Shown: one piece after another, positions 17,354 to 38,175 of the stretch
How positions within the stretch are numbered: position 1 is the stretch's first letter
Layout: every line of letters starts with the position of its first letter
DNA from: Arthrobacter sp. M2012083
GTDB taxonomy: Bacteria; Actinomycetota; Actinomycetes; Actinomycetales; Micrococcaceae
Length of the DNA: 64,000 nucleotides
Assembly: GCF_000281065.1 (NCBI RefSeq)
Contig: NZ_AKKK01000025.1
Location: forward strand, 62,001 to 126,000
Direction: 5' to 3'
The notes under the pieces: model-generated
Told to the model about the DNA's origin: nothing
Seen by the model: the letters and a program-made list of their open reading frames with translations, nothing else
Databases searched by the model: none
Program-made: the position numbers and the translations under genes

Positions 17354-17611
17354 TTAACCCCGGCTGCGCTTCCAAGCGCCCGGACCCGGTGTGGGGTCCA
17401 GGCGGAGTTGTTGGCGCCGCACCCAGTGACGGATGTTCGGCTTGGACGAGGCCGCTTCCTGCCGGACTCCCAGCGAAACCACGACGGCGGCAAGTGCCGC
17501 GAGCTCTTCGGCTGTCGGTTCGCCCTTGACCACCGAGAACTTCGGTTCGGCAGGCGGTTCGGCAGATGCTCCGTCGGGCGCCGAATCGGCGCGATGCTTG
17601 GGAGCCGTCAC
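17354..17611 (-). CDS. accE: Acyl-CoA carboxylase epsilon subunit
   Basis: This 85-residue protein stabilises and activates the alpha/beta complex of actinobacterial acyl-CoA carboxylases. It begins [14 protein letters not shown], and the core reads [20 protein letters not shown], the conserved AccE phrase. It ends in a basic tail with W, RRQQLR and [10 protein letters not shown]. The start ATG overlaps the accD stop in ATGA (17608-17611), so accD and accE are translated as a pair. A carboxylase with an epsilon subunit is characteristic of actinobacteria (AccD5/PccB group). Confidence 0.9.
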
Positions 17612-20365: not shown

Positions 20366-21316
20366 ATGGATGCCGAACAGCCAGAGAGCAGCGAACCCCA
20401 GGTCATGTCCGGAGAGGTCGCGTCCGGGCAGTCCCGTTCCTCTGTGGATCGTAGGGCATTGGACCGTGATGCTCTGCTCCAGCCGGACTTCTTGTCGGCT
20501 ACCGGCATCTCCCAGCTGAAGATTGTCGATTCCACGGGATCCACCAACCAGGACCTCGTGAGGGCCGTGACGGTGGAACCGAAAAAGTGGGCCGACCTTT
20601 CCGTGTTGACCGCCGAACACCAGACGGCGGCGCGCGGACGGCTTGACCGCCACTGGGAATCACCCGAGCGGTCCGCAGTGTCCGTCTCCATGGTGCTGCG
20701 CCCCGTCACGGCAGAAGGCATGCCGGTTCCGACGCAGAGCTACTCCTGGCTTTCGCTGCTGGCCGCGGTCGCTTTGCGGGAAGCCCTGCAGGAAACGGCC
20801 GGCATCACCGCGGAGATCAAATGGCCCAATGACGTGCTGGTTAACGGGCGGAAGGTGGCTGGCATCCTGGCCCAGATGACTCCGCTGGGCGACGGCTCCG
20901 TTCCGGCCGTCATCCTGGGCGTTGGCCTCAACGTGTCCTTGGCCGAGGAGGAACTTCCGGTTCCCACGGCTACGTCGCTTGCCCTGGAAGGGGCCACGAC
21001 GACGGACCGCACTGCGCTGCTGAAGAGCTACCTTTCCCGCTTCGCCAGGTTGTACCGCAGTTTCTGCAACTCGGAGGGGGACCCTGCAGCCGGCTTGGTA
21101 GGTGGCCCGTCGCTGCATAAACGTGTTGAGTCTGCCATGGTGACGTTGGGCCGCGAAGTGCGGGCGCACTTGCCCGGGGACCACGAACTCGTGGGGCACG
21201 CCTCGCGCTTGGATGAGCACGGCTCATTGCTGGTGGTGGATCACGGCGGCAGGGAGCACGTAGTGACAGCCGGGGACGTGGTGCACTTGCGCGCCACAGA
21301 AAGCGGTTATGCGTAA
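20366..21316 (+). CDS. birA: Biotin-[acetyl-CoA-carboxylase] ligase
   Basis: This 316-residue enzyme activates biotin to biotinyl-AMP and attaches it to the carboxylase biotinyl lysine (here AccA3 Lys569). Motifs: STNQDL, the biotinyl-AMP loop ARGRLDRHWESP (a variant of GRGRxxRxW), IKWPNDVLVNGRKVAGIL, and ILGVGLNV. The C-terminal SH3-like domain is present (GREVRAHLPGDHE). There is no N-terminal winged helix, so it is a monofunctional ligase and not the regulator of the shared acc palindrome. An N-terminal tail of about 40 residues is polar. Its stop overlaps the next gene's start by 8 bases. Confidence 0.93.
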   Translation: MDAEQPESSEPQVMSGEVASGQSRSSVDRRALDRDALLQPDFLSATGISQLKIVDSTGSTNQDLVRAVTVEPKKWADLSVLTAEHQTAARGRLDRHWESPERSAVSVSMVLRPVTAEGMPVPTQSYSWLSLLAAVALREALQETAGITAEIKWPNDVLVNGRKVAGILAQMTPLGDGSVPAVILGVGLNVSLAEEELPVPTATSLALEGATTTDRTALLKSYLSRFARLYRSFCNSEGDPAAGLVGGPSLHKRVESAMVTLGREVRAHLPGDHELVGHASRLDEHGSLLVVDHGGREHVVTAGDVVHLRATESGYA

Positions 21317-21902
21317 AGAGCTACTTCCGGGGGAGCAGGTCATCACGATCACGCGCCAACAGGGCCGTTCACTCTTTTTCCCGGTGCTGGCGTTCATCGT
21401 GGTTCCCGCGCTCACGGGTTTTGCTTGTGCCTGGATCGTCAGGGAAAACCCCCAGCGCCTGGCGCCGTTCATCACTGCCGAATGGACGCCCTGGCTCGTA
21501 GGCACTGTAGTTGTGCTCGCGGCGTGGTTCCTCGCCGCGTACAGCATGAGGCGCGTCTTGCGGTGGCGGTCGATCAGGTACATCCTGACGAGCAGGCGTG
21601 TACTTGCCAAGAACGGAATGTTTCGGCGGAGTGATTGGCAGGTGTCGCTGATGGCCGTCCGCAACGTGGGTGTCCAGCAGAACATGATCCAACGGGCATT
21701 GCACTCAGGGAATATATCCTTGGATACCGGGCACTCCGGAATAGCCGTCCTGGCCGATGTTCCCGAAGTCGGGAAGTTCCGGGGATTCATTCTTGACGCG
21801 ATGGACGAACTCCCGCAAGGTGAGGTTTTTGAGGGTGAAGTACTGAGGGATTTTGAAGAATTGCCATGGGAGTTGAGAGAAGGTGGAAGAGATGAGCGTT
21901 GA
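21309..21902 (+). CDS. PH-domain (bPH2/YdbS-like) membrane protein
   Basis: This 197-residue protein starts MRKELLPGEQVITITRQQ. It has two transmembrane segments (about residues 22-45 and 60-82) followed by a bacterial PH-like domain: RWRSIRYILTSRRVLAKNGMF and WQVSLMAVRNVGVQQNMIQRAL. This fits the bPH2 family, small membrane proteins of unknown function that are common in actinobacteria. The start lies inside the end of birA (overlap 21309-21316) and the stop overlaps the cyclase start, so birA, this gene and the cyclase form one transcription unit. Confidence 0.82.
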   Translation: MRKELLPGEQVITITRQQGRSLFFPVLAFIVVPALTGFACAWIVRENPQRLAPFITAEWTPWLVGTVVVLAAWFLAAYSMRRVLRWRSIRYILTSRRVLAKNGMFRRSDWQVSLMAVRNVGVQQNMIQRALHSGNISLDTGHSGIAVLADVPEVGKFRGFILDAMDELPQGEVFEGEVLRDFEELPWELREGGRDER

Positions 21903-23070
21903 GGATCAGCAGTCCGGCGAGGACCTGGACCAGGAGTTCGACGCCGTACCGGAACCTTCCGTGGACGAGGAGACTGAGGTCGGGCCTGCTCCGGCGTCGG
22001 TGCAAACAGGTCCGCCCACTGGTGTGATGTCCGCGGAGCGCCTGGCTATTAAAGCGCTTGAGGCGAAACTCCTGGGCGGAGAACGCAAGCTCCGGCGTCG
22101 TGAAGTTGCTGCCGGTGCGGGCGTGTCCATCCTTTCGGCACGCAAGATCTGGCGCGCACTGGGATTCCCTAACTTTGGGGACGAGGACGTCGCGTTCACT
22201 GAACGCGACCAAGCTGCCCTGTCCAGGATCCTGGACTTGGTCCGTGCAGGACTCCTGACAGAGGACGCCGCGATCTCCGTTACCCGGTCCATCGGCCAAA
22301 TGACGGACCGCATGGTGGTGTGGCAAATCGAAGCCTTGGTGGAGGACATGGTTTCCGAACAGGGAATCCCTGATGCCGTGGCCCGCAAGCAGTTGGTAGG
22401 GCAACTGCCTGCCTTGGTTGATTCGCTCGAAGAGATCCTGGTGTACTCCTACCGCCGCCAGCTCAACGCCGGCGTTCAGCGGCTTGCCGTTCGGGCGGAG
22501 GCCGGGTTGCAGGCCAGCGAGGAGGGCCGCGAGGGCGACGAAGACGATTCGCCGTTGCCCTTGGCCCGTGCCGTGGGATTCGCTGACCTTGTCTCTTACA
22601 CCAGCCTGTCGCGCCGCATGAACGAGAAAACGCTCGCCCAGCTGGTGCAGCGCTTTGAGAACAAATGCGCCGAGATCATTTCCGTCGGTGGCGGGCGACT
22701 GGTCAAGACCGTGGGTGACGAAGTCCTGTACATCGCTGAAACCCCGGCCGCCGGAGCCGAGATTTCCTTGGCGTTGGCGCAAGCCTTCACGGAGGACGAG
22801 ATCCTGCCGCAGTGCCGTGTATCCATGGTGTGGGGCCGCATTCTTTCCAGGCTCGGCGATATCTACGGGCCCACCGTCAACCTTGCCGCACGGCTGACCA
22901 CCCTGGCGCAGCCCGGGACTGTCCTTGTGGACGCCATGACCGCCGCTGCCCTTGGACAGGACGACCGCTTTGTCCTGATTCCCCAGAAGTCGGAGAACGT
23001 CCGTGGTTTCGGCGAGATCCATCCCGTGATGCTCGCCCGCGGACGAGGCAAGGGTTTGGTGCTCGACTAA
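21892..23070 (+). CDS. Class III adenylate cyclase with N-terminal regulatory domain (Rv1264-like)
   Basis: This 392-residue soluble cyclase makes cAMP from ATP. Residues about 45-215 form a helical regulatory domain resembling the autoinhibitory, pH-responsive domain of Mycobacterium Rv1264 (LRRREVAAGAGVSILSARKIWRALGF). The catalytic domain follows. Metal-binding Asp232 (GFADLVSYT) and Asp276 (VGDEVLY), substrate-specifying Lys272 and Asp323, and transition-state residues Asn330 and Arg334 (GDIYGPTVNLAARL) are all present. It should therefore be active as an adenylate rather than guanylate cyclase. The acidic first 45 residues look disordered. ATG 21892 has GGTGGAAGAG before it and overlaps the preceding stop. 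Confidence 0.88.
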   Translation: MSVEDQQSGEDLDQEFDAVPEPSVDEETEVGPAPASVQTGPPTGVMSAERLAIKALEAKLLGGERKLRRREVAAGAGVSILSARKIWRALGFPNFGDEDVAFTERDQAALSRILDLVRAGLLTEDAAISVTRSIGQMTDRMVVWQIEALVEDMVSEQGIPDAVARKQLVGQLPALVDSLEEILVYSYRRQLNAGVQRLAVRAEAGLQASEEGREGDEDDSPLPLARAVGFADLVSYTSLSRRMNEKTLAQLVQRFENKCAEIISVGGGRLVKTVGDEVLYIAETPAAGAEISLALAQAFTEDEILPQCRVSMVWGRILSRLGDIYGPTVNLAARLTTLAQPGTVLVDAMTAAALGQDDRFVLIPQKSENVRGFGEIHPVMLARGRGKGLVLD

Positions 23071-23143: not shown

Positions 23144-23217
23144 CGGTGTTTGTGTCGTGGATGGCCGAAGGTTCGGTGCCGGCTGCCTAGTGCTGGCTAA
23201 CGTGTGGGGGAATGTGG

Positions 23218-26200
23218 ATGGCTCTGCCTGACGGGTCCGGGAACCGCCGTGCCAAGAATCGCCGGCGGAAGGTCATCGCGGCAACCGCATTTTCTGTTGC
23301 TGCTGCAGTCCTGGTGACCGGCGCGATCCTCTACCCGGGCTTCAGAACCACCGAAGTTGACCTCAATGATGGCGGCGTCTGGGTGGTCAGCAAGTCCAAG
23401 AATGCCGCTGGACGGCTCAACTACCCTTCCAAGTCCTTGGACGGTGCCGTGACACCGGCCAGCAAGGACTTCGATATCCTCCAGCAAGCCGGTGACGTCT
23501 TCATAGATGACTCCGATGGCGCCACTATCAACCCGGTCAGCGCGGCGAACATGCGGCTGGGCGGAGACCAGAAGCTACCTGGCTCTGCTGATGTAAGTTT
23601 TGGCCACAAAGTGCTGGCTGTCACCGACCCTTCAAAGGGTAAGGTCTGGGCACTGTCGCCCGGCTCAGTGGGCGGCTTCAGCGATGAGTCAGAGCCACTG
23701 TTCGAGCAATCGCCCGGAATTGTTTCGGTGGTGGGTACGGACGACACCATTCACACCGTGGATCCGGAGTCCGGCAGCGTGACCGCCACCAAGGTGGACG
23801 CCAACGGCAGGTCAGTGGATTCGCAGGCCCGCAAGGATGATGCACTCAAGGGCGCAGGAGACCTGCAACTCACCGCAGTGGGTGACAGGGCCGTGGTCCT
23901 CAATGAAGCTACCGGAAACATTGTTCTCCCGGGCGGGGCAACCGTTCACCTGGATGACGCCCGCGATGCAAAGCTCCAGCAAAGCGGACCAGCCGCGGAT
24001 TTCGTGGCCATCGCCACCACCAAAGCGCTCCTGCTTCAGCCGTTGGACGGTGGGACAGCCAAAACCGTCCGGCTCGACGGCGAAGGCATTCCCGCGGCCC
24101 CCGTGCAGTTGGGCACCTGCACTTACGGAGCATGGTCCGGTGCCAACAAGTACATCCGCGAATGCAGCAGCGAAGCTGACAACCGCCGCGCCGACGTTCC
24201 CAAGGCGAGTGCGTCGCCGTCGTACGTTTTCCGGGTCAACCGCGACCTCGTGGTCCTGAACGACGTCAATTCCGGCAACGTGTGGATGGTCAACCAGAAC
24301 ATGCAGTTGGTCAATAACTGGGACGACGTCATCCCGCCCCAGCAAACATCGGACGACGCCGACAAGGACTCCGCTGACGAAGTCCAGCAGACGGTCCTTC
24401 CGGACCGAAGCAAACCGAACACCCCGCCCGTGGCCAAGCCGGACGCCTTTGGCGTGCGCGCCGGGAAGACGACCCTCCTGCCGGTTTTGGACAACGACGC
24501 CGATTCCGACGGCGATGTCCTCACGGTCTCCGCTGACCAGGCCGTGAGGTCGGGGGCGTTGGCGCCCGTCTACGGCGGGACGGGTTTCCAGATTTCCGTC
24601 CCTGCGGAGCAATCCGGCACTGAGACTTTCAAGTACTCCGTGGACGATGGCCGTGGCGGTACCGGGGCAGCGAACGTTGACCTTCGGATAGTCCCTCCCG
24701 GCGAGAACAATGCACCCCAGCAGAAGCCCAACAGGAACAATGCCCTGGTGGTGCAATCCGGAAAGATCGCCAACCAGTACATCCTCAGTGACTGGATAGA
24801 TCCCGACGGTGATGACATCTTCGCGGTGGCTGCCGGCAGCAGCGACCCCGCCGACCAAGTGCGCATCAGGCCGGACGGACTGCTGACGTTCCAGGATTCC
24901 GGAGCCGGGCCCGGCAAGAAGACCATTTCCGTGACGATCTCCGACGGCACCCTGACCACAGAGGGGCGCATCAGTGTGGATGTTCGGGCTCCGGGCGCTC
25001 TGCCTCCGATCGCCAACGCCGATCACGTGGTGGCTGTGGCAGGCCAGGACACGGTGATCGCCCCGCTCAAAAACGATACTGATCCGCAAGGCGGGACTCT
25101 CCGGCTGGCACAGGCCCAGCCGGACGAACAGGCCACCGCCGTCATAGGTCCTGACCAGCAGACGTTTACCTTCAACTCCACGACTGTGGGCCCGCACTAC
25201 GTCACCTATATGGTCACCAACGGCCCGGCAAGTGCCCAGCAGTTGGTGCGTGTCGACGTAGTGTCCGGCAATAATGACGGCGCCCCCGTCGCGGTTCGCG
25301 ACATCGCGCTTCTGCCCAGCGGCGGCAGCACCGTGGTGGACGTGCTGGGCAATGACTCGGACCCGGCCGGCGGTGTACTGGTTGTCCAATCGGTCACTGC
25401 GGAGGACGGCCTGCCGGTCACGGTGGCGGTCCTGGACCATTCGGTGGTCAAGGTCACCGACATCCACGCGACCGGACAATTGTCCCTGAAGTACACGATT
25501 TCGAACGGTAAGGCGTCGGCCACGGGAGACATCTCAGTGCAGGTGGTGCCGGCGCCGAGCAAGCTGCAGGCTCCGCAGGCCAAACCCGACGAAGTGTCGG
25601 TTCGCGTCGGCGACGTTGTGACCATCCCTGTCCTGGAGAACGATTCGGACCCCAACGGCGGAGAGCTCACCCTTGATCCCGCACTGGCGCAACAGCCCGA
25701 CGCAGCGGATGGCAGGACCTTCATCGCGGGCAATTTCCTGCGCTTCATCGCAGGCGAGGTTCCCAAGACCGTCTATGCCATTTATAAGGTAAGCAACGCG
25801 TCAGGCCAGATCGATTCGCAGCAAGTCACTATCCGTATCCGGGCCAGGGACGACGCCACGAACTCCCGCCCCGAGCCGCGAAACCTGACCGCACGTGTGG
25901 TGGCGGGCATGACCGTCAAGATCCCCGTACCGTTGGACGGCATTGATGCCGACGGCGACTCGGTGCAGCTCATTGGCGTCGACAAAGCGCCCGCACTTGG
26001 CACAGCCGTGGTGCGGGATGGCTACATGGAATTCACTGCCGCCGCCAATTCTGCCGGGACTGACACGTTCAGCTATCGCGTTCGAGACCGCATTGGAGCC
26101 GAAAACACCGGCACCGTGATTGTGGGAATCGCACCGGCGGAGGCGAACAACCAGAAACCCATTGCCGTAGACGATGCAATTGATGTCCGGCCAGGTCGTC

Positions 26201-29200
26201 GTATTGCAGTGGATGCGTTGAAAAACGACTCGGATCCCGACGGCGATCCCCTTGGCCTGGTGAATTCCTTCGAAGCCAATCCGGAACTGCAGGTTGAGGC
26301 TGCCACCGGCAAGATCCTGTTGACGGCCCCCGGCGTTGCCGGGACCGAGAGCGTCAGCTACCGGATCCAGGACGACAAAAAGGCTGAAGCCAGCGCTGTG
26401 GTCAGGGTTCAAACAAGCCCGACGGCGGCCCTCCACGTTCCGATTGCCGTAGACGACCGCATCACGCTGGCTGAGACGCTGGGCAAGACCGCTGTCGACG
26501 TCCCGGTACTGAAGAATGACTCTGATCCGGACGGCGTTGCGGAAGACCTGACCATCACATTGCCGGATGCGAATCCGAACGCACGGGTAGGGACTGCCGG
26601 CAACGTGGTGGTGACACTCACGCCGCAGGACCAGCTGATTCCGTACACTGTGACGGACATGGACGGGCAGTCAGCCACAGCCGTGATGTGGGTCCCCGGC
26701 CAAGGGCTGCAATATCCAACTCTTTCCAAGACCGAGCCTGTTGAGGTCATGTCCGGGAAGGAAGTCACTCTTTCGCTCCAGGAATACGTCCGTGTGCGGG
26801 AAGGCCGCCAGCCCCGGCTTACGGTGGCGGACAAGATCCGTGTCCAGGGAGCCGATCCAAACAACGTCATTTCCGGCGATGGAAATGCGCTGCGGTATGC
26901 AGCGCAGACGGACTACGTCGGCCCTGGATCCATCACCTTCGAGGTGACTGACGGATCCGGTCCGGACGACTCGCAAGGGCTCAAGTCCACGTTGACCATC
27001 ATCACCAAGGTGATCCCGGACCCTAACGCGAACCACGTCCCCACCTTCAGCGGCGCTTCGATCGAGGCACCCAAGGGTGAAACCACCGAGCTGGAATTGG
27101 CAAACCTCGCCAAGGACGTGGACGAGCGGGATCAGGGAAACTTGAAATTCGAGCTCGACGGACAACAGCCGGCGGGCTTCCAAACCAAGGTGGAGGGAAG
27201 CGTCCTCAAAGTCACCCCGGACCTCTCCGTGAACCCAGGTGCAGTGGGCTCCTTCCCGCTGAAGGTCACGGACGGGCGCTCCGACGCTGTTCGCGCGACG
27301 GTGACCGGTACCGTAGTGTCCTCCAACAGGCCTCGTCCTACAGCCAACGACGACGCTGTTGAGAAAGCCAACGCGGGACGCTCCGAAACCGTCAATGTGC
27401 TGGCCAACGATTTCAACCCCTTTAATGACTCACCACTGACCATCGAGAGCGCCGCAGTGGAAACGGGCTCCGCGGCTGGTCAGCCGACCGTTTCAGGCGA
27501 TGCGGTCACGGTGACTCCTGCGGACGGTTTCAAGGGCGTCATGGTGGTGCGGTACACGGTGCTGGATAAGACCAAGGACCCCTCGAGGCAGGCTGTCGGC
27601 CGTGTCCGGATCACGGTCCGCGACAAGCCCGATGCTCCGTCGGCACCCGTAGCTACCGATGTCCGGAGCCGTACCGCAGTGCTCAAGTGGGCGCCGCCGT
27701 CGGACAATGGCGCAGCCATCACCAAGTACACGGTCAAGGCAGCCGGTTTTGAACAGGTGTGCCCGACCACCACCTGCACGCTCTCAGGACTGACCAACAA
27801 TGTGAAGTACGTTTTCACGGTGTTCGCCACCAATGAGGTGGGGGATTCGCCGGCGTCAATCGCGTCCAACGAGATCCGCCCGGATGAGAAGCCGTCGCCG
27901 CCGGACGCCCCCACGGTCAAAGCCGGGGACAAAAACATGGCTATGACATGGACCCCCGCGAAGACTGAGGGCTCACCTGTGAAGCACTACAACCTTGAGA
28001 TCTCTCCGCCCCCGGCCAACGGCATTGCCGTCAAGAACGAGGTCACCGGCCTGAGCTACACGTGGCCCGGACTCAGCAATGGCGTGAAATACAAGGTCCG
28101 TGCCCAGGCCGTCAACGAGCTCGGTCCGTCGGACTGGGGAATGTACTCCCTTGAGGACAACCCCGCTGGCCTTCCGGCGGCCCCGGCTGCACCCACCACC
28201 GCTGTGGTGGAGTCCGTGGGAACTAGTAACCAGATCCGCGCGGATTGGGCCGAACCGGACATCAATGGTGATCCCATCAAGACGTACTACGTCACCATGA
28301 GTGGTGGAAACGGCGTTCCCCAGACCCAAACAGTCCCGGGGAACGTCCGGTCAGCCACCTTCACCGCCCAGAACGCAGAAGCCGGCTACACGTTCACTGT
28401 GCAAGCTGAGAACAAGGCCGGGAAGGGTGGCGTCAGTGCCGCCTCGGCCCCGCGCCGTGCCACAGGCAAGCTAGGCACCGTTAACAACGTCACTGTGACG
28501 CCGGCAAATACCGGGGGAGCGGGCCGGGCCGTCACCATCAACTTTGCCGTTCTTGACGACAAGCAACGAAACGGATCCACGCAGAGCGAAGTCAGCTACC
28601 GCTACCTGGCGAGTACCGGCCAGTCCGGTCCCATCACGCCCGGGCAAACGGTGGGTGGTTTCGCCAATGGGCAGGCTACCTCCATCACGGTCACGGCCGT
28701 GTCCTCAGTGGCGCCGAGTTCCAATGCCAGCGCACCGGCAACCACCACGCCGTATGGTTCGCCCGGTACGCCGTCCGCTTCAGGTGCAAACGGCGGCCAG
28801 AACCAGACCACGTTGACGCTGAATTGGTCCTCGCCGTCCACAAACAGCAACGACGTCGCGGTCACGAAGATCAGGATCACCGGCGGTGGAACTGATACCG
28901 GGTGGATCAACGAGTCAGCCTCCGGCAGCCGTGTAGTCAACACCGGTGGCTACAACCAGACCCGCACCATTGAGGTCCAGACGTTCAACTCCATAGGCCA
29001 GGGCGGAGGCGTGGCTACCGCGAGTGCTCAGAGTGGGCCGCAGAAGACGTCCTGGGATGCGACCTTGCCGTCCGGCAGCTTCCGTACGTGCACGGACACC
29101 GCGCCATCCGGTCAGACGTCCTGGGACCCCAACACTCCGGGGCACCGCTGCGATGGCGTGGTCTATGGAGCCCCATGGCAGTACGAGTCCAATGGCACAT

Positions 29201-29352
29201 TCACGGTTAACTGTTACATCAACCGCAGCACCCCGTACTTGAACTATGCGGCCTGGTACCGCCTGACCAGCGGCGCTAACGCAGGCCGTTTCATCGCCCA
29301 AGGCAACACCACCTTGGGAGACCCCGGACCCCATCAGATTCCGCAATGCTGA
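23218..29352 (+). CDS. Giant membrane-anchored surface protein 1: propeller-like, Ig/cadherin-like and FN3 repeats
   Basis: This 2044-residue protein has a basic cytoplasmic N-terminus (RRAKNRRRK) and one membrane helix (about residues 19-41), so most of it lies outside. Residues about 45-360 show repeated short beta motifs ([28 protein letters not shown]) like a propeller. From about 400 to 1470 come some nine Ig/cadherin-like modules, each opened by an Asp-rich motif such as VLDNDADSDGD or [10 protein letters not shown] that could bind calcium. Five FN3-like modules follow (about 1470-1940). The end (about 1957-2044) has four Cys and a WYRLTSGANAGRF stretch recalling SH3-type wall-binding domains. 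ATG 23218 is preferred over 23212 because GGGGG lies seven bases before it. No sortase motif. It is a close paralogue of the next gene. Confidence 0.85.
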   Translation: MALPDGSGNRRAKNRRRKVIAATAFSVAAAVLVTGAILYPGFRTTEVDLNDGGVWVVSKSKNAAGRLNYPSKSLDGAVTPASKDFDILQQAGDVFIDDSDGATINPVSAANMRLGGDQKLPGSADVSFGHKVLAVTDPSKGKVWALSPGSVGGFSDESEPLFEQSPGIVSVVGTDDTIHTVDPESGSVTATKVDANGRSVDSQARKDDALKGAGDLQLTAVGDRAVVLNEATGNIVLPGGATVHLDDARDAKLQQSGPAADFVAIATTKALLLQPLDGGTAKTVRLDGEGIPAAPVQLGTCTYGAWSGANKYIRECSSEADNRRADVPKASASPSYVFRVNRDLVVLNDVNSGNVWMVNQNMQLVNNWDDVIPPQQTSDDADKDSADEVQQTVLPDRSKPNTPPVAKPDAFGVRAGKTTLLPVLDNDADSDGDVLTVSADQAVRSGALAPVYGGTGFQISVPAEQSGTETFKYSVDDGRGGTGAANVDLRIVPPGENNAPQQKPNRNNALVVQSGKIANQYILSDWIDPDGDDIFAVAAGSSDPADQVRIRPDGLLTFQDSGAGPGKKTISVTISDGTLTTEGRISVDVRAPGALPPIANADHVVAVAGQDTVIAPLKNDTDPQGGTLRLAQAQPDEQATAVIGPDQQTFTFNSTTVGPHYVTYMVTNGPASAQQLVRVDVVSGNNDGAPVAVRDIALLPSGGSTVVDVLGNDSDPAGGVLVVQSVTAEDGLPVTVAVLDHSVVKVTDIHATGQLSLKYTISNGKASATGDISVQVVPAPSKLQAPQAKPDEVSVRVGDVVTIPVLENDSDPNGGELTLDPALAQQPDAADGRTFIAGNFLRFIAGEVPKTVYAIYKVSNASGQIDSQQVTIRIRARDDATNSRPEPRNLTARVVAGMTVKIPVPLDGIDADGDSVQLIGVDKAPALGTAVVRDGYMEFTAAANSAGTDTFSYRVRDRIGAENTGTVIVGIAPAEANNQKPIAVDDAIDVRPGRRIAVDALKNDSDPDGDPLGLVNSFEANPELQVEAATGKILLTAPGVAGTESVSYRIQDDKKAEASAVVRVQTSPTAALHVPIAVDDRITLAETLGKTAVDVPVLKNDSDPDGVAEDLTITLPDANPNARVGTAGNVVVTLTPQDQLIPYTVTDMDGQSATAVMWVPGQGLQYPTLSKTEPVEVMSGKEVTLSLQEYVRVREGRQPRLTVADKIRVQGADPNNVISGDGNALRYAAQTDYVGPGSITFEVTDGSGPDDSQGLKSTLTIITKVIPDPNANHVPTFSGASIEAPKGETTELELANLAKDVDERDQGNLKFELDGQQPAGFQTKVEGSVLKVTPDLSVNPGAVGSFPLKVTDGRSDAVRATVTGTVVSSNRPRPTANDDAVEKANAGRSETVNVLANDFNPFNDSPLTIESAAVETGSAAGQPTVSGDAVTVTPADGFKGVMVVRYTVLDKTKDPSRQAVGRVRITVRDKPDAPSAPVATDVRSRTAVLKWAPPSDNGAAITKYTVKAAGFEQVCPTTTCTLSGLTNNVKYVFTVFATNEVGDSPASIASNEIRPDEKPSPPDAPTVKAGDKNMAMTWTPAKTEGSPVKHYNLEISPPPANGIAVKNEVTGLSYTWPGLSNGVKYKVRAQAVNELGPSDWGMYSLEDNPAGLPAAPAAPTTAVVESVGTSNQIRADWAEPDINGDPIKTYYVTMSGGNGVPQTQTVPGNVRSATFTAQNAEAGYTFTVQAENKAGKGGVSAASAPRRATGKLGTVNNVTVTPANTGGAGRAVTINFAVLDDKQRNGSTQSEVSYRYLASTGQSGPITPGQTVGGFANGQATSITVTAVSSVAPSSNASAPATTTPYGSPGTPSASGANGGQNQTTLTLNWSSPSTNSNDVAVTKIRITGGGTDTGWINESASGSRVVNTGGYNQTRTIEVQTFNSIGQGGGVATASAQSGPQKTSWDATLPSGSFRTCTDTAPSGQTSWDPNTPGHRCDGVVYGAPWQYESNGTFTVNCYINRSTPYLNYAAWYRLTSGANAGRFIAQGNTTLGDPGPHQIPQC

Positions 29353-29362
29353 GTCAATCGAC

Positions 29363-29400
29363 GCCGGGGCGCTGGATAGTTGTCCCCATCGCGCCCCGGC
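29363..29400 (+). terminator. Hairpin after giant gene 1
   Basis: A perfect 10-bp GC stem GCCGGGGCGC (29363-29372) / GCGCCCCGGC (29391-29400) with an 18-base loop begins ten bases after the stop. There is no T-tract. It suggests that giant gene 1 ends its own transcript. Confidence 0.6.
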
Positions 29401-29453
29401 CCAAGGGGACAGTACGCTGTCAAAGCCAATGGATAGCCCGGTCTCGGGTTTCC

Positions 29454-29487
29454 TTGGCCGGCCGTGGGGCGCGTGGGATAGTCTTAG
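29454..29487 (+). promoter_or_regulatory. Putative promoter of the second giant gene and downstream operon
   Basis: TTGGCC (29454-29459) and TAGTCT (29479-29484), 19 bases apart, form a plausible promoter. TAGTCTTAG is identical to the element before giant gene 1. The rest of the 250-base gap to 29602 shows no gene. Confidence 0.4.
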
Positions 29488-29602
29488 GGACTGAAATTTC
29501 CGCCGCCGTATGGGGGTACTGCGAAATGTACGGCCGCCGGCATCTGCCGGTTGGCTTGGAAGCCACTGGGGGGCGGCTGAACACAAAGGGAATTCTGGGG
29601 CT

Positions 29603-32600
29603 GTGACAACTTTCTTCGGCAAGCTGGGGCTGAAAAAGCGTCAAAACAAGAAGTTCATAGCGGGGACTGCCGCCACAGCGGCGGGCGCTTTGCTGATCAC
29701 CGGGGCGATTCTGTACCCGGGGTTCAAGACCACCGAGGTGGACTTGAATGACGGCGGCGTGTGGGTCGTGAGCAAAACCAAGAACGCCGTAGGCCGGTTG
29801 AACTATCCCTCCCGCGTCCTTGATGGTGCCGTCACTCCCGCTACCACCACGTTTGATGTGCTGCAGCATGACGGCAACGTCTTCGTGGACGACGAATCCG
29901 GTTCCACCATCAACCAGGTGTCGGCCGCAAACCTGAAGCTCGGTGGCGATAAGCAGCTACCGTCGTCGTCGCAAGTCAGCTACGGGTCCACCGTGCTCTC
30001 GGTGACCGATCCGGCCCGGGGCAAAGTCTGGGCACTGTCTCCCTCCACCGTCAACGGCTTCGACGAAGAAGGAACCGAACCCGTACTGACTGGTTCCCCG
30101 GGCATGGTCTCTGCCGTGGGATCCGACAACCGGATCTACACAGCAGATCCGGGTAAGGGCGAAATCATCGTCACCACGGTGGACGCCAACGGTGAACGGA
30201 CCGACTCGCAGGTCAGCAAGGTGGACGAGCTCAAGGGCGCCGGCGACCTTCAACTGGCCGTGGTGGGCGACAAGCCTGTGATCCTTGACGCTGCTTCCGG
30301 CAACCTCTTCCTGCCGGGCGGCCGCAAGCTGCAACTTCAGGATGCCCGCGAAGCCAAGCTCCAGCAGAACAGTGAAGACAGCAACTACGTCGCCATTGCC
30401 ACACAGAAGGCCCTGCTGAAGCAGCCCTTGGACGGGTCCACGGCCGCAACCGTGAATGCTGACGGGGAAGGTGTCCCCGCGGCTCCGGTTCAGGTCAGCA
30501 AGTGTGTTCACTCAGCGTGGTCCGGCGCCAACAAGTACGTCCGGGACTGCGACAATGACGCCGACGACAAGAAGAACGACGTCCCCAAAGCCAGTGCCTC
30601 CCCAAGCTACGTTTTCCGTGTGAACCGGGACCTGGTTGTCCTCAACGACGTGAACTCGGGCAGCGTGTGGCTGGTCAACCAGAACATGCAGCTGGTGAAC
30701 AACTGGGACGACGTAGTCCCGCCTAAAAACCAGTCCGATGACCAGGACCAGGAGTCCGCGGACAACAACACCATCAATGTCCTCCCGGACCGCACCAAGC
30801 CCAACCGTCCGCCCGAAACCAAACCGGACGAGTTCGGTGTCCGGCCGGGCCGGACTTCCATCCTGAGCGTGCTGGACAACGATTCAGATCCCGACGGCGA
30901 TGTCCTCACCGCGTCGGTGGGCGCCAACGGCCCCAAGATGGGTGCGCTGGAAAACATCTACGGAGGATCCGCCTTCCAGATCAAGGTCCCGGCAGATGCG
31001 AAACCGGGCACGGAAGTCTTCGACTATAACGCCGCCGATGGCCGCGACTTGTCCGCCGGTGGCAAGGTCACACTGCGGGTGGTAGCCCCTGAAGAGAACA
31101 AACCGCCCTTCTTCAAACGAGGCGAGCCCACCACAATGCTGGTGGAGCAGGGCAAGTCGGTCAGCCAGAACATCCTGACCGACTGGATGGACCCCGATGG
31201 CGACGACCTCGTCCTGTTGGATGCAAAGTCTGACAACGACCAGGACCAAGTGAAGGTACGCCGCGACGGCCTCCTGACGTACCAGGACTCCGGCGCAGCA
31301 CCGGGCAAGAAGAACGTCACCATCACAGTGTGGGACGGCAGGGCCACTACTACCGGCCGCATCGTGGTCAACGTCCAGCCGCCGGGTGCCCTCGCACCCG
31401 TGGTCAACGCTGACCACGTCACCGCAGTGGTGGGCCAGGACCTGGTCATCGCACCGCTGAAAAATGATGTGGACCCCAACGGTGGCGCCCTGCGTGTCGC
31501 CCATGTTGAGGCTGCGGGCCCTGCTGAGCTCGGCCCGGTCACTGACGGCGGTACGTTCACCTTCCGGAGCACCACACCCGGTCCGATCTACTTGACGTAC
31601 ATCGCCAGCAACGGCCCCCAGAGCAGCCAAGGGCTGATCCGTGTGGACGTTGAGTCCGGCAAGGATGCCGGAGCTCCCGTCGCAGTCCACGACGTCGCAC
31701 TGCTCCCGGTGGGCGGCAGTGTGCTGGTTGATCCGCTGGCCAACGACTCCGATCCTTCCGGTGGCGTGCTGGTCCTCCAATCCGTCACCGTCCCCGACGG
31801 CTCATCGGCATCCGTGAGCGTGATCGACCACAGTGTCCTTCGCGTTACGGACGTCCTCGGCGCCAAGGAACCGTTCGTCTTCAGCTACACCATGTCCAAC
31901 GGCCGCGCCTCAGCTACCGGCACGGTGGGCGTTGTCCCGGTGCCGGCTCCCGCCGTCGTCGAGGCTCCCCAGCCTAAACCCGACGAAGTCAACGTCCGCG
32001 TGAACGACGTCGTGACCATTCCGGTCCTGGACAATGACACGCACCCGCAGGGTGAGGAACTGTCCGTGGATCCGGTGCTGGCGCAGAGCATCCCTGAAGA
32101 GGACGGCAAAGCGTTCATTTCCGAGAAGACCCTGCGCTTTATTGCCGGACCGACGCCCAAAACCGTACGTGCCATCTACAACGCAGTGGATCCGCAGGGT
32201 CAGAAGAGCGCCGCGGCAGTCACCATTCACATCCTTCCGCTGGAAGGTACCCAGAATTCGCGTCCGCAACCGCAAAACCTGACGGCACGCGTTGTGGCGG
32301 GCGGCAGCGTCCGGATCCCGGTTCCGCTGGACGGCATAGACCCCGACGGCGATTCGGTACAGCTCACCGGCATCGACAGCACACCCACCATGGGAACCGC
32401 GACGGCGGGCAGCAGCTTCATCGACTTCGTGGCCGCCGGTGACGGCGCGGGTACCGATACGTTCCGGTACAAGGTGATCGACCGCCAAGGCGCGGTCAAC
32501 ACCGGAACGGTGACGGTGGGCGTCGCGCCCCGCGGCGAGGACAACCAGAAACCTGCTCCCGTCGATGATGAAGTCAAGGTCCGCCCTGGCCGCCAGATCG

Positions 32601-35600
32601 CCGTGGACGCGACCGCGAACGACACGGACCCCGATGGTGACATCATCCGAATCCTGACGGACAGCATCGAAGCCGACGCAGGTCTTGATGCCAAGGTCAG
32701 CAAGACCAGCGGACGGATTCTGGTAACCGCTCCCGCCGCCGAGGGCACCGTCAACGTTCGTTATTCCGTTGCCGACGACCGCGATGCCGTAGGACAGGCC
32801 AGTATCCGGGTGGTAGTCCAGAACGATCTACCGCTGCAGGCGCCGATTGCCCGAGACGACCGCGTGACCTCGGCACAAACACTTGGTAAAACTGCCGTGG
32901 ATGTTCCCGTCCTGAAGAACGACGAAGATCCGGACGGCGTGGGGGAGAACCTCAAGGTCGCTACCGGTCTGGAAACCGCGCGTCCCGGTCCCGAGGGCAA
33001 CGTCATTGTTGACCTCACCGAGCAGCCGCAACTGGTGCCCTACACCGTGGAGGACGTGGACGGACAAAAGTCCACGGCCATCATTTGGGTTCCCGGTATT
33101 GGCCAGCAGGTTCCTACGCTCGCCAAGGACGAGGTAGTGGAGCTTGTCTCAGGCCAGTCCGTCACGGTAAATCTCGCGGAGTGGGTCAAAGTCCGTGAAG
33201 GGCGCACACCACGCCTGACCCAGACCGACCGCATCAAGCTCATCGGTGCCGACGGCAGCGATCCCGTAGCCAACGGTGGCACTGCCCTGAAATACACGGC
33301 AGGTGCTGAGTATGTTGGCCCCGGCTCCATCAGCTTCGAAGTCACTGATGGAACAGGTCCGGACGATCCCAACGGTCTGAAGTCGACGCTCAGCATCCGA
33401 ACCAAAGTGCTGCCCGACCCCAACAAGAACAACCCGCCGGTTCTGCTGGGCAGCGACGTGGAAGTTCCCAAGGGCGACTCTGCCAGCCTGGACCTGGAGA
33501 AGCTGACGTCGGATCCGGACCAGGATGACGTGCAGAACATGGGCTACGAGCTGGTGGGCGCAGCCCAGGGCGGCTTCAAGGTGAATGTGGAGGGCAAGAC
33601 GCTCAAGGTCTCTGCGGATGATTCCGTGCAGATTGGGCAGTCGGGCACCGTCCAGGTGAAAGCAAAGGACCGCCGCGGGCTCGAAGCTGTGGCAACGTAC
33701 AAGCTGTCCCTGTCGGCCTCCAACCGGCCAAAACCCGTGGCAAACGACGACTCTGAACCCGAGGCGCAATCCGGGAAGCCTGTGACGGTCAACGTGTTGG
33801 CCAACGATTCGAATCCGTTCCCGGAAACTCCGTTGAAGATCGTCTCAGCCGTCACGGAAACGGGCCAGGGAACGGCTGAAGCCGGCGGGGACAGCGTGAC
33901 CGTCACACCCGCAGGCGGATTCACCGGAACCATGGTGGTTGCGTACACCGTGGAAGATAAGACCGGCGAGATCTCCCGATATGCCACTGCCCGCATCCGT
34001 TTGACGGTCAAGGACAAGCCGGCAGCACCAACCACGCCGCTGGCGCAGTCCGTGGGCGACCAAACTGCCTTGCTCACATGGAACGCGCCCGCTGACCGTG
34101 GTTCGGCTATCACCAAGTACACGGTGTACGGGGAGAACGGCTTTAAGCAGGACTGCCCCGCGAATACCTGTACGTTGACCGGCCTGACCAACAATGTGAA
34201 GTACCACTTTGCCGTCACTGCCACGAATGCGATCAACGAATCCGAGCGGTCACCGGTGTCGGCCGAGGTCCGTCCGGACGTCAAGCCCGACACGCCGATT
34301 GCACCCACGCTGAAGTTCGGCGACAAGCAGCTGTCCGTGGCGTGGGTTCCTCCCGCAAGCAAGGGCTCGCCCATCAAGTCCTACGACCTTGAGATCTCGC
34401 CTGCGCCTGCGGGCCAGAACCCGCAGATCCAAAACCTCACGGCCAACAGCCATGTTTGGAGCGGTCTGACCAATGGCGTGGCCTACAAGGTCCGGGTCCT
34501 GGCCAGGAATGACGCCAAGGAGCCCTCGGAATGGAGTACCTACTCTGCTGCCGAAACTCCTGCAGGAGTGCCGGTGGCCCCTGCGGCTCCTTCAGTTGCG
34601 GGAGCCGGTTCCGTGGGTACGCAGAGCCAGTTGCAGGTTAGCTGGGCGGCGCCGAATAACAACGGTGACGCGGTGTCCGCCTACACCTTGACCACGTACA
34701 TGGGCGGCGCCGTCGTAGCTACGCAATCTGTGGGGGCTACCTCGCAGAACGTCACCGTGGCGAACTCCGAAGCGGACTACACATTCACGGTGTCAGCCAC
34801 AAACAAGGCCGGCGTCAGCGGTGTCAGCCAACAGTCGGCCCCAATCCGGGCTGCAGGCAAGCCCGGGATGGTGGGGAGTGGATCCGTAAAAGCGACCGGC
34901 GACTCTGGTCGGCTCGAGGTTGCCTTCACGCCGCTTACTGCAGCCGAGCGGAACGGCTCGCAGGACAACGAGATTACTTACCGCTGGCAGACCGCTCATG
35001 GTTCCGGGCAGATTGCCCGCGGAGGCGGAATCATCGGTGGGCAGCCCAATGGAACCGACGTGGTAGTAAATATCATCGCCACTTCGGTGAAGAACGGCAT
35101 GGCCGGCGATGCGAAGGCGATCGGCACAGGTAACCCCTATGCGCCCCCGAACGCGCCGAATGTCTCGGGCGGAAAGTCCGCCAAGGGCGACGGCCAGGTG
35201 CACTGGAATTGGAATCCGCCGAACATGAACGGCCGCGCCCTCGACCACTACGAGGTCAATCTCGACGGCGGCGGCTGGACCAGCGTTGGCAAGGCAACGA
35301 GCTTCGACGCCTCAGGTGGCGGGTGGGACAAGACGAGGAAGCTCAACGTCCGGGCCTTCACAGTAGTGGCTGGCGCACATAGCGGCCAAGTCAACGCGAC
35401 GAGTGGCGACGACCCCACGCCACCGCCGCCCCCACCGCCTCCATCCACAACGATCCAGGCGCACAACAACACATGCCCGGGTAAACCGAATCAGCCGGAC
35501 ACCTACAACCCAAGCGGGCCGACGTGTGGAGTTGGCTGGGTCTCCCGCTCTGAAGGACGCCTGAAGATTGACTGCACAAAGAACATTTACGGCGGGAGCA

Positions 35601-35695
35601 CCAAGTGGTATCGAGTCACGGAGGGAAGCCACCCTGGATGGTTCGTCAAGGCCATCACCGTGGACCGCTTTGGCAATGAGCCCGGCGGCTGCTGA
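29603..35695 (+). CDS. Giant membrane-anchored surface protein 2, paralogue of protein 1
   Basis: This 2030-residue protein has the same plan as protein 1: basic start (LKKRQNKK), one membrane helix (about residues 21-41), a propeller-like region, about nine Asp-rich Ig/cadherin-like modules ([22 protein letters not shown]), FN3 modules, and a Cys-containing C-terminal domain with [13 protein letters not shown]. The first 60 external residues are almost identical to protein 1 ([16 protein letters not shown]). It differs by a polyproline linker ([12 protein letters not shown]) before the last domain. GTG 29603 is chosen because similarity to protein 1 begins just after it; an ATG at 29510 in frame has no ribosome site. 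It leads the moxR-to-essC gene run with only 61 bases to moxR. Confidence 0.83.
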
Positions 35696-35756
35696 TGCTC
35701 CGTCAGGCCGATCAACAACTCCATTCGCACACCTACACAAGGAACAGGATCAACCG

Positions 35757-36728
35757 ATGACCATGACAAACGAGCAGGCCGCGTGGTTTGCAGAAACGTT
35801 CGAGAAGCTCGTTGCCAACGTGGGCAAGGCCGTGTTGGGCAAGGAACACGTCATCCGGCTGACGTTCACGGCCATGATGGCCGAAGGCCATGTCCTGTTT
35901 GAAGACGCGCCGGGCACGGGTAAGACCTCCCTTGCCCGCGCCTTGGCCGCGACGGTCCAGGGTTCGCATAACCGTATCCAGTTCACGCCTGACCTCCTGC
36001 CGTCTGACGTGACGGGTGTGACCATCTACGACCAAAAGACCCAGAAGTTCGAGTTCCACAAGGGCCCGGTCTTCAACAACATCGTCCTGGCTGACGAGAT
36101 CAACCGTGCCTCCCCGAAGACGCAGTCCGCTTTGTTGGAAGTCATGGAGGAATCCCGGGTGACCGTGGACGGCACCACGTACGAGGCAGGCCGACCGTTC
36201 ATGGTCCTGGCTACCCAGAACCCCATCGAACAGGCAGGCACCTACCGCCTCCCCGAGGCCCAGCTCGACCGCTTCCTGATTAAGACCTCCATCGGCTACC
36301 CGGACCACGCTTCCACCGTCCGGTTGCTGGGCGGCGCGAACTTGAAGGACCGTTCGAAGGACCTCAGCGCGTTGATCACCACCCAGGCCGTAGCGGACAT
36401 GGCGGACCTGGCAGCCACCACCCACGTGGACACCGCGGTGCTGGAGTACATTTCCCGCCTCTGCGAAGAGACCCGCAATGCCTCCGAAACGCGGCTTGGT
36501 GTTTCTGTTCGTGGCGCTTTGGCCATGGTCCGCGCTGCGAAGGTGTGGGCGGCCAGCCAAGGCCGCAACTTCGTGCTGCCGGACGACATCAAGGAGCTCG
36601 CACCCGTGGTGTGGACGCACCGTTTGGTGATGGACCCCGAAGCCGAATTCTCCGGCGCAACGCCAGAGGTGGTACTCAACCGCGTCCTCGCCGACGTCGC
36701 CGCCCCGCAGCAACGCGCGAGCGCATAA
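35757..36728 (+). CDS. MoxR-family AAA+ ATPase
   Basis: This 323-residue cytoplasmic chaperone-type ATPase of the MoxR group is thought to help assemble or activate partner proteins, often with DUF58 or VWA proteins. Walker A is DAPGTGKTSLARAL, Walker B NIVLADEINRASPKTQSALLEVMEE, followed by sensor 1 in LATQNPIEQAGTYRLPEAQLDRF, all typical. The C-terminal lid (ETRLGVSVRGALAMVRAAKVWA) is complete. ATG 35757 follows AAGGAACAGGAT; a second ATG two codons later is possible. The adjacent genes encode DUF58 and transglutaminase-like proteins, a trio widespread in bacteria, here embedded in the surface-protein/EssC locus. Confidence 0.93.
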   Translation: MTMTNEQAAWFAETFEKLVANVGKAVLGKEHVIRLTFTAMMAEGHVLFEDAPGTGKTSLARALAATVQGSHNRIQFTPDLLPSDVTGVTIYDQKTQKFEFHKGPVFNNIVLADEINRASPKTQSALLEVMEESRVTVDGTTYEAGRPFMVLATQNPIEQAGTYRLPEAQLDRFLIKTSIGYPDHASTVRLLGGANLKDRSKDLSALITTQAVADMADLAATTHVDTAVLEYISRLCEETRNASETRLGVSVRGALAMVRAAKVWAASQGRNFVLPDDIKELAPVVWTHRLVMDPEAEFSGATPEVVLNRVLADVAAPQQRASA

Positions 36729-36771: not shown

Positions 36772-38175
36772 ATGTCCTCCAGCACACCCCTGAACAGGGC
36801 TGCTGACTCGTTCAAGCGCGTTACGTCCGCTCTCGGCGGCAAGATGCGTTCCTTGCGCGGCCCTGGCGACGTGCCGGGCACGCGCCCCGGCCGGTCAAGC
36901 CAGCGCGGCAAAACCAGCAAGCTCCACCCCGCAGCCGTTTGGTCGGAAGCAGCCGGAACTGCGGGCGACTTCCTTGCGCCGGGGTGGGCAAAGGTCAGGG
37001 CTGTCTGGCTGAGGTTCGTCTGGCCCGTCCTGGCAGTGGTGAGCCTGCTCGGCTGGGTAGTCTTGGCTGCCTCGATCGGGCTCTGGTGGGCGGGACAGGC
37101 GTGGGGTTGGCAGGAAGCCACGTCAGCTGCCATGGTGGCGTTCCTGCTGTTCCTCCTTGCCATCGGCTTCATTGTGGGCCGCTCGGCCTATGGAGTGGTT
37201 CTGGACCTTGCCCGCACAAGGGTGGCTGTGGGGGATGACGCCGTGGGCAGCATTGCCGTGTCCAACGTGTCCACGAGGCCGTTGTTGCCTGCAGCGTTGG
37301 AGCTGCCGGTGGGTTCCAACACTGCCGTTTTCCATTTGCCCCGCATGAAGCCGGCACAGGTGCACGAGGATCTCTTCACCATCCCTACAGCGCGGCGTGC
37401 AGTAATTGTTGTGGGTCCGGTCCGATCTGTTCGCGCCGACCCCCTCCACTTGCTGCGTCGTCGCGTGATGTGGACCGATCCGGTGGACCTGTTCGTCCAT
37501 CCCCGGACCGTGTCCCTGGGCAGCTCGGCGGCCGGCTTTATCCGCGACCTTGAAGGCATGCCCACTACGGAACTTTCCAGCGCGGATGTCTCCTTCCATG
37601 CGTTGCGCGATTACGTTCCCGGGGACGATCGGCGCCACATCCACTGGAAGACCACAGCCCGCACCAACAAGCTCATGGTTCGCCAGTTCGAGGAGACCCG
37701 GCGCGCACACCTGGCCATCTCGCTCTCCATCAATACAGACGAGTATGACTCCGAGCCCGAGTTCGAAATGGCCATATCTGTGGCTGCTTCCATTGGCAGG
37801 CAGGCCATTCGTGAGCAGCGTGAGCTGGACGTCCTGACCCAAAAGGGGCCGCTCCGCTGCGAAACCGGCCGGAACCTGCTTGACGATATGACCCGCATTG
37901 TCGGGGCACCCATGCGGAAGACCGCCGTCGACCTCGCCCGCACCCTTTCGGATACAGTCCCCAACGCCTCCGTGGTGTTTTTCGTCGTGGGGAGCCATGT
38001 GACTGCCACCCAACTGCGCTCGGCGGCCTCGTCCGTTCCCCCCGGCGTGCGGAGCCTGGCGGTCCGTGTCCAACCCGGAGCGGCGCCGTCGAGGGCCAAC
38101 ATCGCGGACCTGACGGTCCTCACGGTTGGCGACCTGGACGATCTCGCCATAGTTCTTCGAAAGGCGGCAGCATGA
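36772..38175 (+). CDS. DUF58 domain membrane protein
   Basis: This 467-residue protein has a basic Ser/Arg-rich cytoplasmic start (about 70 residues), two transmembrane helices (about 82-140: WPVLAVVSLLGWVVLAASIGL and AAMVAFLLFLLAIGFIVG), then an external-type beta region and a DUF58 domain. The DUF58 core DYVPGDDRRHIHWKTTAR is intact and leads into a von Willebrand A-like half. DUF58 proteins regularly partner MoxR ATPases, and the function of the pair is generally unknown. The stop overlaps the next start in ATGA (38172-38175), so it is made together with the transglutaminase-like protein. Confidence 0.9.
   Translation: MSSSTPLNRAADSFKRVTSALGGKMRSLRGPGDVPGTRPGRSSQRGKTSKLHPAAVWSEAAGTAGDFLAPGWAKVRAVWLRFVWPVLAVVSLLGWVVLAASIGLWWAGQAWGWQEATSAAMVAFLLFLLAIGFIVGRSAYGVVLDLARTRVAVGDDAVGSIAVSNVSTRPLLPAALELPVGSNTAVFHLPRMKPAQVHEDLFTIPTARRAVIVVGPVRSVRADPLHLLRRRVMWTDPVDLFVHPRTVSLGSSAAGFIRDLEGMPTTELSSADVSFHALRDYVPGDDRRHIHWKTTARTNKLMVRQFEETRRAHLAISLSINTDEYDSEPEFEMAISVAASIGRQAIREQRELDVLTQKGPLRCETGRNLLDDMTRIVGAPMRKTAVDLARTLSDTVPNASVVFFVVGSHVTATQLRSAASSVPPGVRSLAVRVQPGAAPSRANIADLTVLTVGDLDDLAIVLRKAAA

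Follow-up and report, generated by a model that had tools for sequence, protein, structure and literature searches.

Likely repeated gene conversion of a membrane-proximal segment in an old tandem pair of giant envelope-protein genes of Arthrobacter and its relatives

Results

The gene pair and its downstream cluster

The stretch of DNA analyzed here, a 64,000-nucleotide window from the genome of Arthrobacter sp. M2012083, contains two adjacent open reading frames on the plus strand, gene A at 23212-29352 (2046 codons) and gene B at 29510-35695 (2061 codons in its longest form), which were the only two copies found in a search of their own genome. Gene A encodes a giant Ig/FN3 surface protein anchored at its N-terminus and falls in the A-type clade of the stalk trees; B is its paralogue, of the type shared with the 15 single-copy loci of the genus used here. 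A GTG at 29603, chosen by eye, is the probable start of B, and the in-frame starts at 23218 and 29603 match the lengths of 2044 and 2030 residues given in the original prediction. The equal domain order claimed for the two genes was also found, with nine Big_9 and three fn3 stretches recognized by Pfam in each.

By eye, both proteins begin with a basic stretch followed by a hydrophobic segment, and the N-terminal domain should therefore sit outside, adjoining the membrane. In A this membrane-proximal domain, possibly a beta-propeller to judge from weak structure matches, covers residues 45-377 (23344-24342) and is the segment found converted in relatives by the conversion scan and the trees; the equivalent segment of B, delimited by the same scan and trees, lies at approximately 29726-30727. 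Next come the stalks of Ig-like (Big_9) repeats assigned by Pfam (A, residues 411-1470, 24442-27621; B, approximately 30830-34012), which follow the A/B orthology, and the FN3 regions defined by Pfam and trees (A, residues 1471-1755, 27622-28476; B, approximately 34013-34867). By tip typing, the outer tip of A (29047-29349) is one of four types among A copies, and the polyproline linker and outer tip of B (35408-35692), located also by PPP count, belong to one of five types among B copies. Pfam gave no match in the N-terminal domain of A or B or in the last 303 residues of A, and in the B tail nothing but a sub-threshold fn3 match at its edge. The outer tip may be SH3b-like, going by motif patterns. 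Upstream of A, the open reading frames at 21224-21790, 21787-23022 and 17566-18876 had no Pfam match at E 0.1.

Downstream on the same strand, Pfam identified a MoxR-type AAA ATPase (35568-36728, true start probably further in), a DUF58 protein (36772-38175) and a TgpA-like membrane transglutaminase (38172-40655) whose ectodomain was placed at residues 278-646 from hydropathy. Domain matches then pointed to an RDD/zinc-ribbon/FHA membrane protein (40558-42198), a PP2C-type phosphatase (42195-43121), an FHA-domain protein (43108-44991) and a Ser/Thr protein kinase with one transmembrane-like segment (44826-46748, true start probably near 44976). An open reading frame for a 234-aa protein without a Pfam match (46794-47498), in which FHA-like and winged-helix parts were seen by eye only, is followed by an EssC/EccC-like protein with FHA and FtsK/SpoIIIE ATPase domain matches (47495-51949); the latter scored 540 bits against TIGR03928, below the cut-off of 778.4. 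All nine genes from MoxR through the EssC-like ATPase were present in the window and in 37/37 other tandem genomes. The next open reading frame encodes a 211-aa proline-rich protein with a C-terminal hydrophobic segment by eye (51962-52597), for which a tblastn match was found in three of the 13 downstream regions compared, one of them ending before its place. A genome search for WXG100 proteins had two hits, located on C6 and C3, and none on the cluster's contig, C25; the one at G000:C6:12467-12721, away from the cluster, was the only match in the genome over the cut-off. Also away from the cluster, a second FtsK-like ATPase (G000:C13:63445-65262) scored 266 bits against the EssC model. Further along the window, an AAA_21-type ATPase gene (55789-56997) follows ligA and a gene for an inositol phosphatase.

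Divergence within the window pair

When the A and B proteins were aligned (2014 positions), the overall identity was 53.5%. Per 100-column block, the first 400 columns gave 56-77%, the Ig part 49-61% except for one block at 42%, the FN3 part 47-58% and the last 293 columns 22-34%; over the last ~290 residues identity was 25%. Uniform divergence, which the original prediction had named as its refutation, was thus not seen (56-77% in the N-terminal blocks versus 22-34% in the last 293 columns), and these block identities, together with the trees of relatives, support the predicted duplication with differing outer ends and a more similar membrane-proximal part. The further claim that the N-terminal external regions are almost identical was too strong, since residues 33-335 were only 64% identical in protein sequence and 44% identical at third codon positions, and dS was about 1.4 for residues 45-372. 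Strong conservation between A and B was confined to two short stretches, residues 33-60 (25/28) and 336-385 (42/50). The 16-residue motif reported as common to both proteins is indeed shared, and falls within a stretch well conserved across genera. The polyproline linker was confirmed in B; PPP occurred within the last 140 residues in 38/40 B copies and 1/40 A copies at tandem loci of the genus, so that the linker marks the B type and was not gained recently.

The dS of the window pair was 1.40 for residues 45-372 and 1.47 for the Ig part, saturated in every region, and third-position identity was 0.44 (residues 33-335) and 0.42 (residues 411-900), respectively. Recent conversion was considered for this pair and is ruled out by this saturation; in the window genome it was sought by dS and third-position identity and not found. 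The dN was 0.265 for residues 45-372 compared to 0.406 for Ig. Such values would be expected if no conversion had taken place and the membrane-proximal part evolved slowly through constraint, by docking on one machine, while the outer parts diverged: dN is lower at the N-terminus with dS similar and saturated, some N-terminal domain positions are invariant across genera, and in the 13 genomes of the window's own clade N-terminal omega was low (medians 0.047 and 0.032).

Relatives sampled and age of the duplication

Using the N-terminal domain as query, matches were found in 65/81 genomes of the genus and 30/61 of the family (own genome in both), and with the alignment of the domain as query, in 50/99 genomes sampled from the order. 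Forty pairs of the genus were gathered, the window included; two loci with one broken copy each (L058 and L060) were removed, leaving 38, and the pair statistics excluded genomes whose copies were fragmentary or dispersed. Tree counts given over 40 genomes refer to these 38 plus two of the sister genus. At L060 (G064:C1:1305376-1307865), A is interrupted by ~1.4 kb of other DNA near query residue 324, equal to A residue about 364 and within the convertible segment. At L058 (G032:C1:1452981-1454059, a single-contig genome), the N-terminal region of B contains a stop and reads as two open frames. The gap between A and B is about 1.8 kb at L061 (G005:C11), compared to a few hundred bases elsewhere.

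Seven drafts (G077, G052, G069, G020, G030, G043 and G124) had partial matches only, several at contig starts, and these fell near A residues 41-80 or 262-400, a pattern that the collapse of two near-identical N-terminal segments in assembly would produce. A missing copy in a draft is therefore unsafe as evidence of absence. All 15 single-copy loci of the genus that were used carried a B-type stalk (15/15), some of these genomes being drafts in which the absence of A is uncertain. Five genomes of the genus (L095-L099 and L102) had a dispersed copy elsewhere, with about 46-48% identity to A, and these copies comprised two locus types in the stalk tree; the dispersed-copy locus L181 (G026) was followed by DUF58, TgpA and kinase matches. 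Tandem pairs of the A/B-type gene also occurred in other genera of the family (L073, L074, L075 and L077), and in the full-length tree the two copies were sister to each other in L073, L075 and L077.

In full-length and Ig trees, copy 1 of the genus pairs belonged to an A clade and copy 2 to a B clade, and each clade was joined by the corresponding copy of the sister genus. Because the A and B stalk clades are common to both genera, the duplication is older than the genus, and the trees indicate that it predates the split of the genus from its sister genus. The same clades stand against the idea that each species duplicated the gene recently and independently, with no conversion, which has next to no probability in our judgment even though some other genera have younger tandem pairs of their own (L073, L075 and L077). 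Within the genus, independent duplication was ruled out, as no sister pair occurred in the Ig or FN3 trees.

Conversion of the membrane-proximal segment in relatives

In 24/38 genus pairs, nucleotide identity between A and B was 87-100% over residues 33-335 compared to 56-69% over residues 411-1470, and dS was 0-0.31 at the N-terminus compared to 0.54-1.82 in the Ig part. The A and B copies of one genome were sisters in the N-terminal tree in 21/40 genomes and in the Ig and FN3 trees in 0/40 each. In 22 of the 40 genomes, N-terminal trees with a single A clade were rejected (p-AU 8e-06), and no fewer than 12 label changes were forced. Outside the window clade, the closest B to A was that of the same genome in 24/25 genomes for the N-terminus and 1/25 for Ig. 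N-terminal identity was 0.960 within genomes versus 0.805 otherwise, and the observed same-genome mean was reached in 0/5000 permutations. The corresponding Ig excess was very small, 0.624 versus 0.623 (95 of 5000 permutations), and in the window clade 0.598 versus 0.596 (16 of 5000 permutations); it was taken as shared base composition and is far below the N-terminal effect.

In named strains, identity was 0.87 or above at 23 of the 40 tandem loci, 0.775 at one and 0.65-0.69 at 16, in a set that overlaps the genome sample and is not independent of it. The 13 best-matching named loci (Paenarthrobacter or Arthrobacter) were all in the 0.65-0.69 group. Short-read assembly might conceivably have pasted one N-terminus into both genes, and several drafts do show fragmentary segment matches at contig starts; ten converted genomes assembled as single contigs, with nucleotide identities of 0.89-1.00, rule out such an artefact, and four single-contig pairs at 0.89-0.94 are similar yet not identical, leaving this explanation a negligible chance.

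The A domains of converting genomes were nested among B domains in the trees, so the usual direction of conversion is B into A. In a scoring scan, whose 3' limit is pulled toward the conserved stretch 336-377, the best-scoring block ended at residues 373-377 in each of the 25 genomes scanned outside the window clade and started at residues 1-43 in 23/25. The exceptions among the 25 were L059, with a shorter tract, and L061, with the conserved stretch only. These tandem paralogues thus have one segment more alike within a genome than between orthologues while the rest follows orthology, which is the pattern of segmental concerted evolution, and we conclude from alignments and trees that the membrane-proximal likeness of the paralogues in most relatives examined reflects overwriting by segmental gene conversion.

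These results weigh heavily against constraint without conversion. Trees group the domain by genome, and dS of 0-0.31 refutes that explanation for 24/38 genomes. Moreover, orthologues diverge at residues 61-335 as much as in the Ig stalk or more, with a conservation of 0.735 versus 0.785 and 0.742 between A copies and 0.793 versus 0.879 and 0.819 between B copies, and the membrane-proximal part is therefore not fixed as originally proposed. In converting lineages, omega was higher at the N-terminus (0.21-0.22) than in Ig (0.08-0.09). The omega of MoxR, DUF58 and TgpA was also higher in non-window genomes, in pairs that are not independent, so the N-terminal rise is partly a clade effect. On balance, constraint acting without conversion is improbable.

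A reading with a considerable chance, though somewhat under one half, is that the conversion, though real, is passive and uninformative on function, the segment having stayed convertible just because it was still sufficiently similar when the stalk passed the homology limit. The tracts lie between two conserved stretches that are potential homology arms, recombination between species also affects other parts of the genes, and the window clade, where nucleotide identity is about 66%, lacks recent conversion. The linker at residues 386-410 argues the other way: although beside the tract, it stays paralogue-specific in the genus, with an identity of 0.59 between A and B versus 0.90 and 0.95 for copies of one type. 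This hints that selection affects the places in which conversion persists.

The clade of the window

The 13 genomes of the window clade, the window among them, were unconverted, with nucleotide identity of 0.63-0.67, and their own B was the closest B in just 2/13. For the N-terminus, a grouping of the A copies of this clade's genus with the sister-genus A was rejected (p 0.0002, or 0.0028 without residues 45-99). For Ig the same grouping was fully supported, and a genus A+B group was rejected (p 6e-07). The genus A+B clade in the N-terminal trees had modest support (86/83 and 79/88), with long branches and program warnings. Since dS is saturated everywhere in the window pair, synonymous sites cannot separate old conversion from selection. 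With less certainty than for the converting relatives, the N-terminal trees of the window clade may reflect an older homogenization, and the residual N-terminal similarity of the window pair fits older conversion plus selection.

Loss of A, tip exchange and stalk transfer

If the near-identical segments recombine, the resulting deletion should join an A leader to a B stalk. This arrangement was found in three of the 15 single-copy loci (L083, L091 and L101), whose leaders and upstream DNA scored 288-357 bits to A compared to 101-115 to B; L083 and L101 were sisters in the Ig tree, so one or two events may be represented. The other loci had B-type leaders (12/15), and such loop-out can account for only some losses of A.

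Among 55 B copies the last ~105 residues sorted into five tip types, and among 40 A copies into four. On an Ig tree that is itself affected by stalk transfer, tip type required 13 changes for B (54 rows) and seven for A (39 rows), compared to minima of four and three and shuffled means of 24.4 and 14.8, respectively. The outer tips thus belong to discrete types that are exchanged. Compared with those of L024, the stalks of the window reached 97-100% identity in the 150-base blocks of 24405-28754 and 30702-33701, while the coding blocks of neighbouring genes were mostly 80-95% identical, and the B tips were of different type. This comparison indicates that both stalks were recently transferred between species, separately from the tips.

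Fold of the domain and a candidate partner

The model of the N-terminal domain had a mean pLDDT of 54, and many of the Foldseek matches listed were propellers by title, with TM of about 0.3; a profile search gave a match to virginiamycin B lyase (E 0.05). A beta-propeller fold is tentatively suggested by this model. The tail model was good (pLDDT 84.5), and the matches listed for it fell mostly at residues 50-238, the FN3 part.

In the search for a partner, N-terminal distances were compared with those of 13 other regions, controlled for Ig_B, MoxR and EssC. In 25 genomes outside the window clade, the TgpA ectodomain ranked first for both A and B (0.82 and 0.59). Without L061, its values were 0.40 and 0.47, tied with FN3_B (0.40 and 0.43). 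With all 38 genomes, DUF58 led for A (0.59 versus 0.49) and the TgpA ectodomain for B (0.39 versus 0.36). In the 13 window-clade genomes the TgpA ectodomain gave -0.01 and 0.08, and RDD/FHA (A) and the cytoplasmic part of the kinase (B) led. The TgpA ectodomain may be the best candidate for a shared partner, as a lead only.

Discussion

The A/B cluster resembles two described systems, and each comparison has mismatching features. As in the PFNA cluster described for Bifidobacterium (PMC8430577), fn3, MoxR, DUF58 and transglutaminase genes follow one another on the same strand, and PP2C, FHA and kinase genes occur in both when gene content and order are compared. The kinase comes first there, before fn3, whereas here it lies downstream at 44826-46748, and here there are two fn3-type genes and extra FHA and EssC-like genes (PMC8430577). 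With T7SSd, as described in PMC11217815, the cluster shares an FHA-bearing EssC-like ATPase, a Ser/Thr kinase and a giant Ig-domain protein. In contrast, WXG100 is part of T7SSd and none was matched on the contig here, and TsdI has a signal peptide and a C-terminal membrane helix, whereas the hydrophobic segment of A and B is N-terminal by eye (PMC11217815). TsdH of T7SSd is a single-pass protein; the 211-aa protein here has one C-terminal hydrophobic segment.

Segmental conversion of A and B is of the same kind as that in three other tandem or paired systems. In Leptospira, ligA and ligB are described as tandem giant Ig-domain surface genes with a nearly identical 5' part and a unique remainder, for which gene conversion was proposed (PMC7821625). 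In the present case the shared part is non-Ig and adjoins the membrane, the organism is a soil actinobacterium, and the effect was traced by trees over dozens of species. Segmental concerted evolution is reported for babA and babB of Helicobacter pylori, with one segment alike within strains and another between them (PMC3960876); these differ in being outer-membrane adhesins with a 3' segment and a link to adhesion switching. The tandem mammalian paralogues TLR1 and TLR6 had ~300 residues homogenized repeatedly with conserved limits, and shared partners were offered as explanation (PMC2077338); they are eukaryotic receptors with known partners, whereas the partner here is a lead only. The A/B pair is notable for the breadth of the effect, the recurrence of its limits and the setting of the genes. 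Among the matches listed in a literature search of incomplete coverage, there was no publication on the A/B pair or on conversion in PFNA-type genes.

We consider it likely that A and B stem from an old tandem duplication and that a ~1-kb membrane-proximal segment was repeatedly converted while the stalks remained distinct and the tips were swapped, the event in the window clade being old. The ancestral gene would have encoded a giant envelope protein anchored at its N-terminus, with a membrane helix, a propeller-like domain, an Ig/FN3 stalk and an exchangeable tip. Its tandem duplication would have given A and B before the genus and its sister genus separated, and homologous recombination would then have copied the ~1-kb segment between the genes repeatedly, mainly from B into A. 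The expected outcome is a segment near-identical within a genome and different between species, on stalks that were not homogenized and with swapped tips, as in most relatives examined. In the window clade, the last conversion would be old, and the N-terminal similarity would be the residue of ancient conversion plus purifying selection on the two short stretches. The sequences show how old the duplication is, that relatives underwent conversion, with its limits and usual direction, and that stalk and tip are mosaic. An older conversion behind the window pair is less sure.

Because conversion is limited to one domain, the docking on one machine suggested by the original prediction is plausible. 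The domain might dock both proteins on a shared partner from the cluster; the stalk would then cross the wall and the tip make the contacts. In a more specific proposal, which we regard as speculative and rather unlikely to hold as a whole, the two proteins form a surface system that docks through the membrane-proximal domain, and this domain must match a fast-changing cluster partner, most likely the TgpA transglutaminase ectodomain; conversion would keep both interfaces the same while stalks and tips specialize, in an uncharacterized PFNA/T7SSd-like envelope machine of soil Actinomycetota.

For practical purposes, the N-terminus of these proteins is a misleading basis for trees and orthology calls, and breaks or collapse may occur in short-read assemblies at the N-terminal segments of A and B. 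No job of the PFNA/T7SSd-like cluster in these soil bacteria was found described in the literature searched. The pair amounts to a natural experiment in which dozens of species have had one domain reset while its neighbours were unaltered, and the reset domain points to the part of a giant envelope protein whose function is shared, with a testable partner named.
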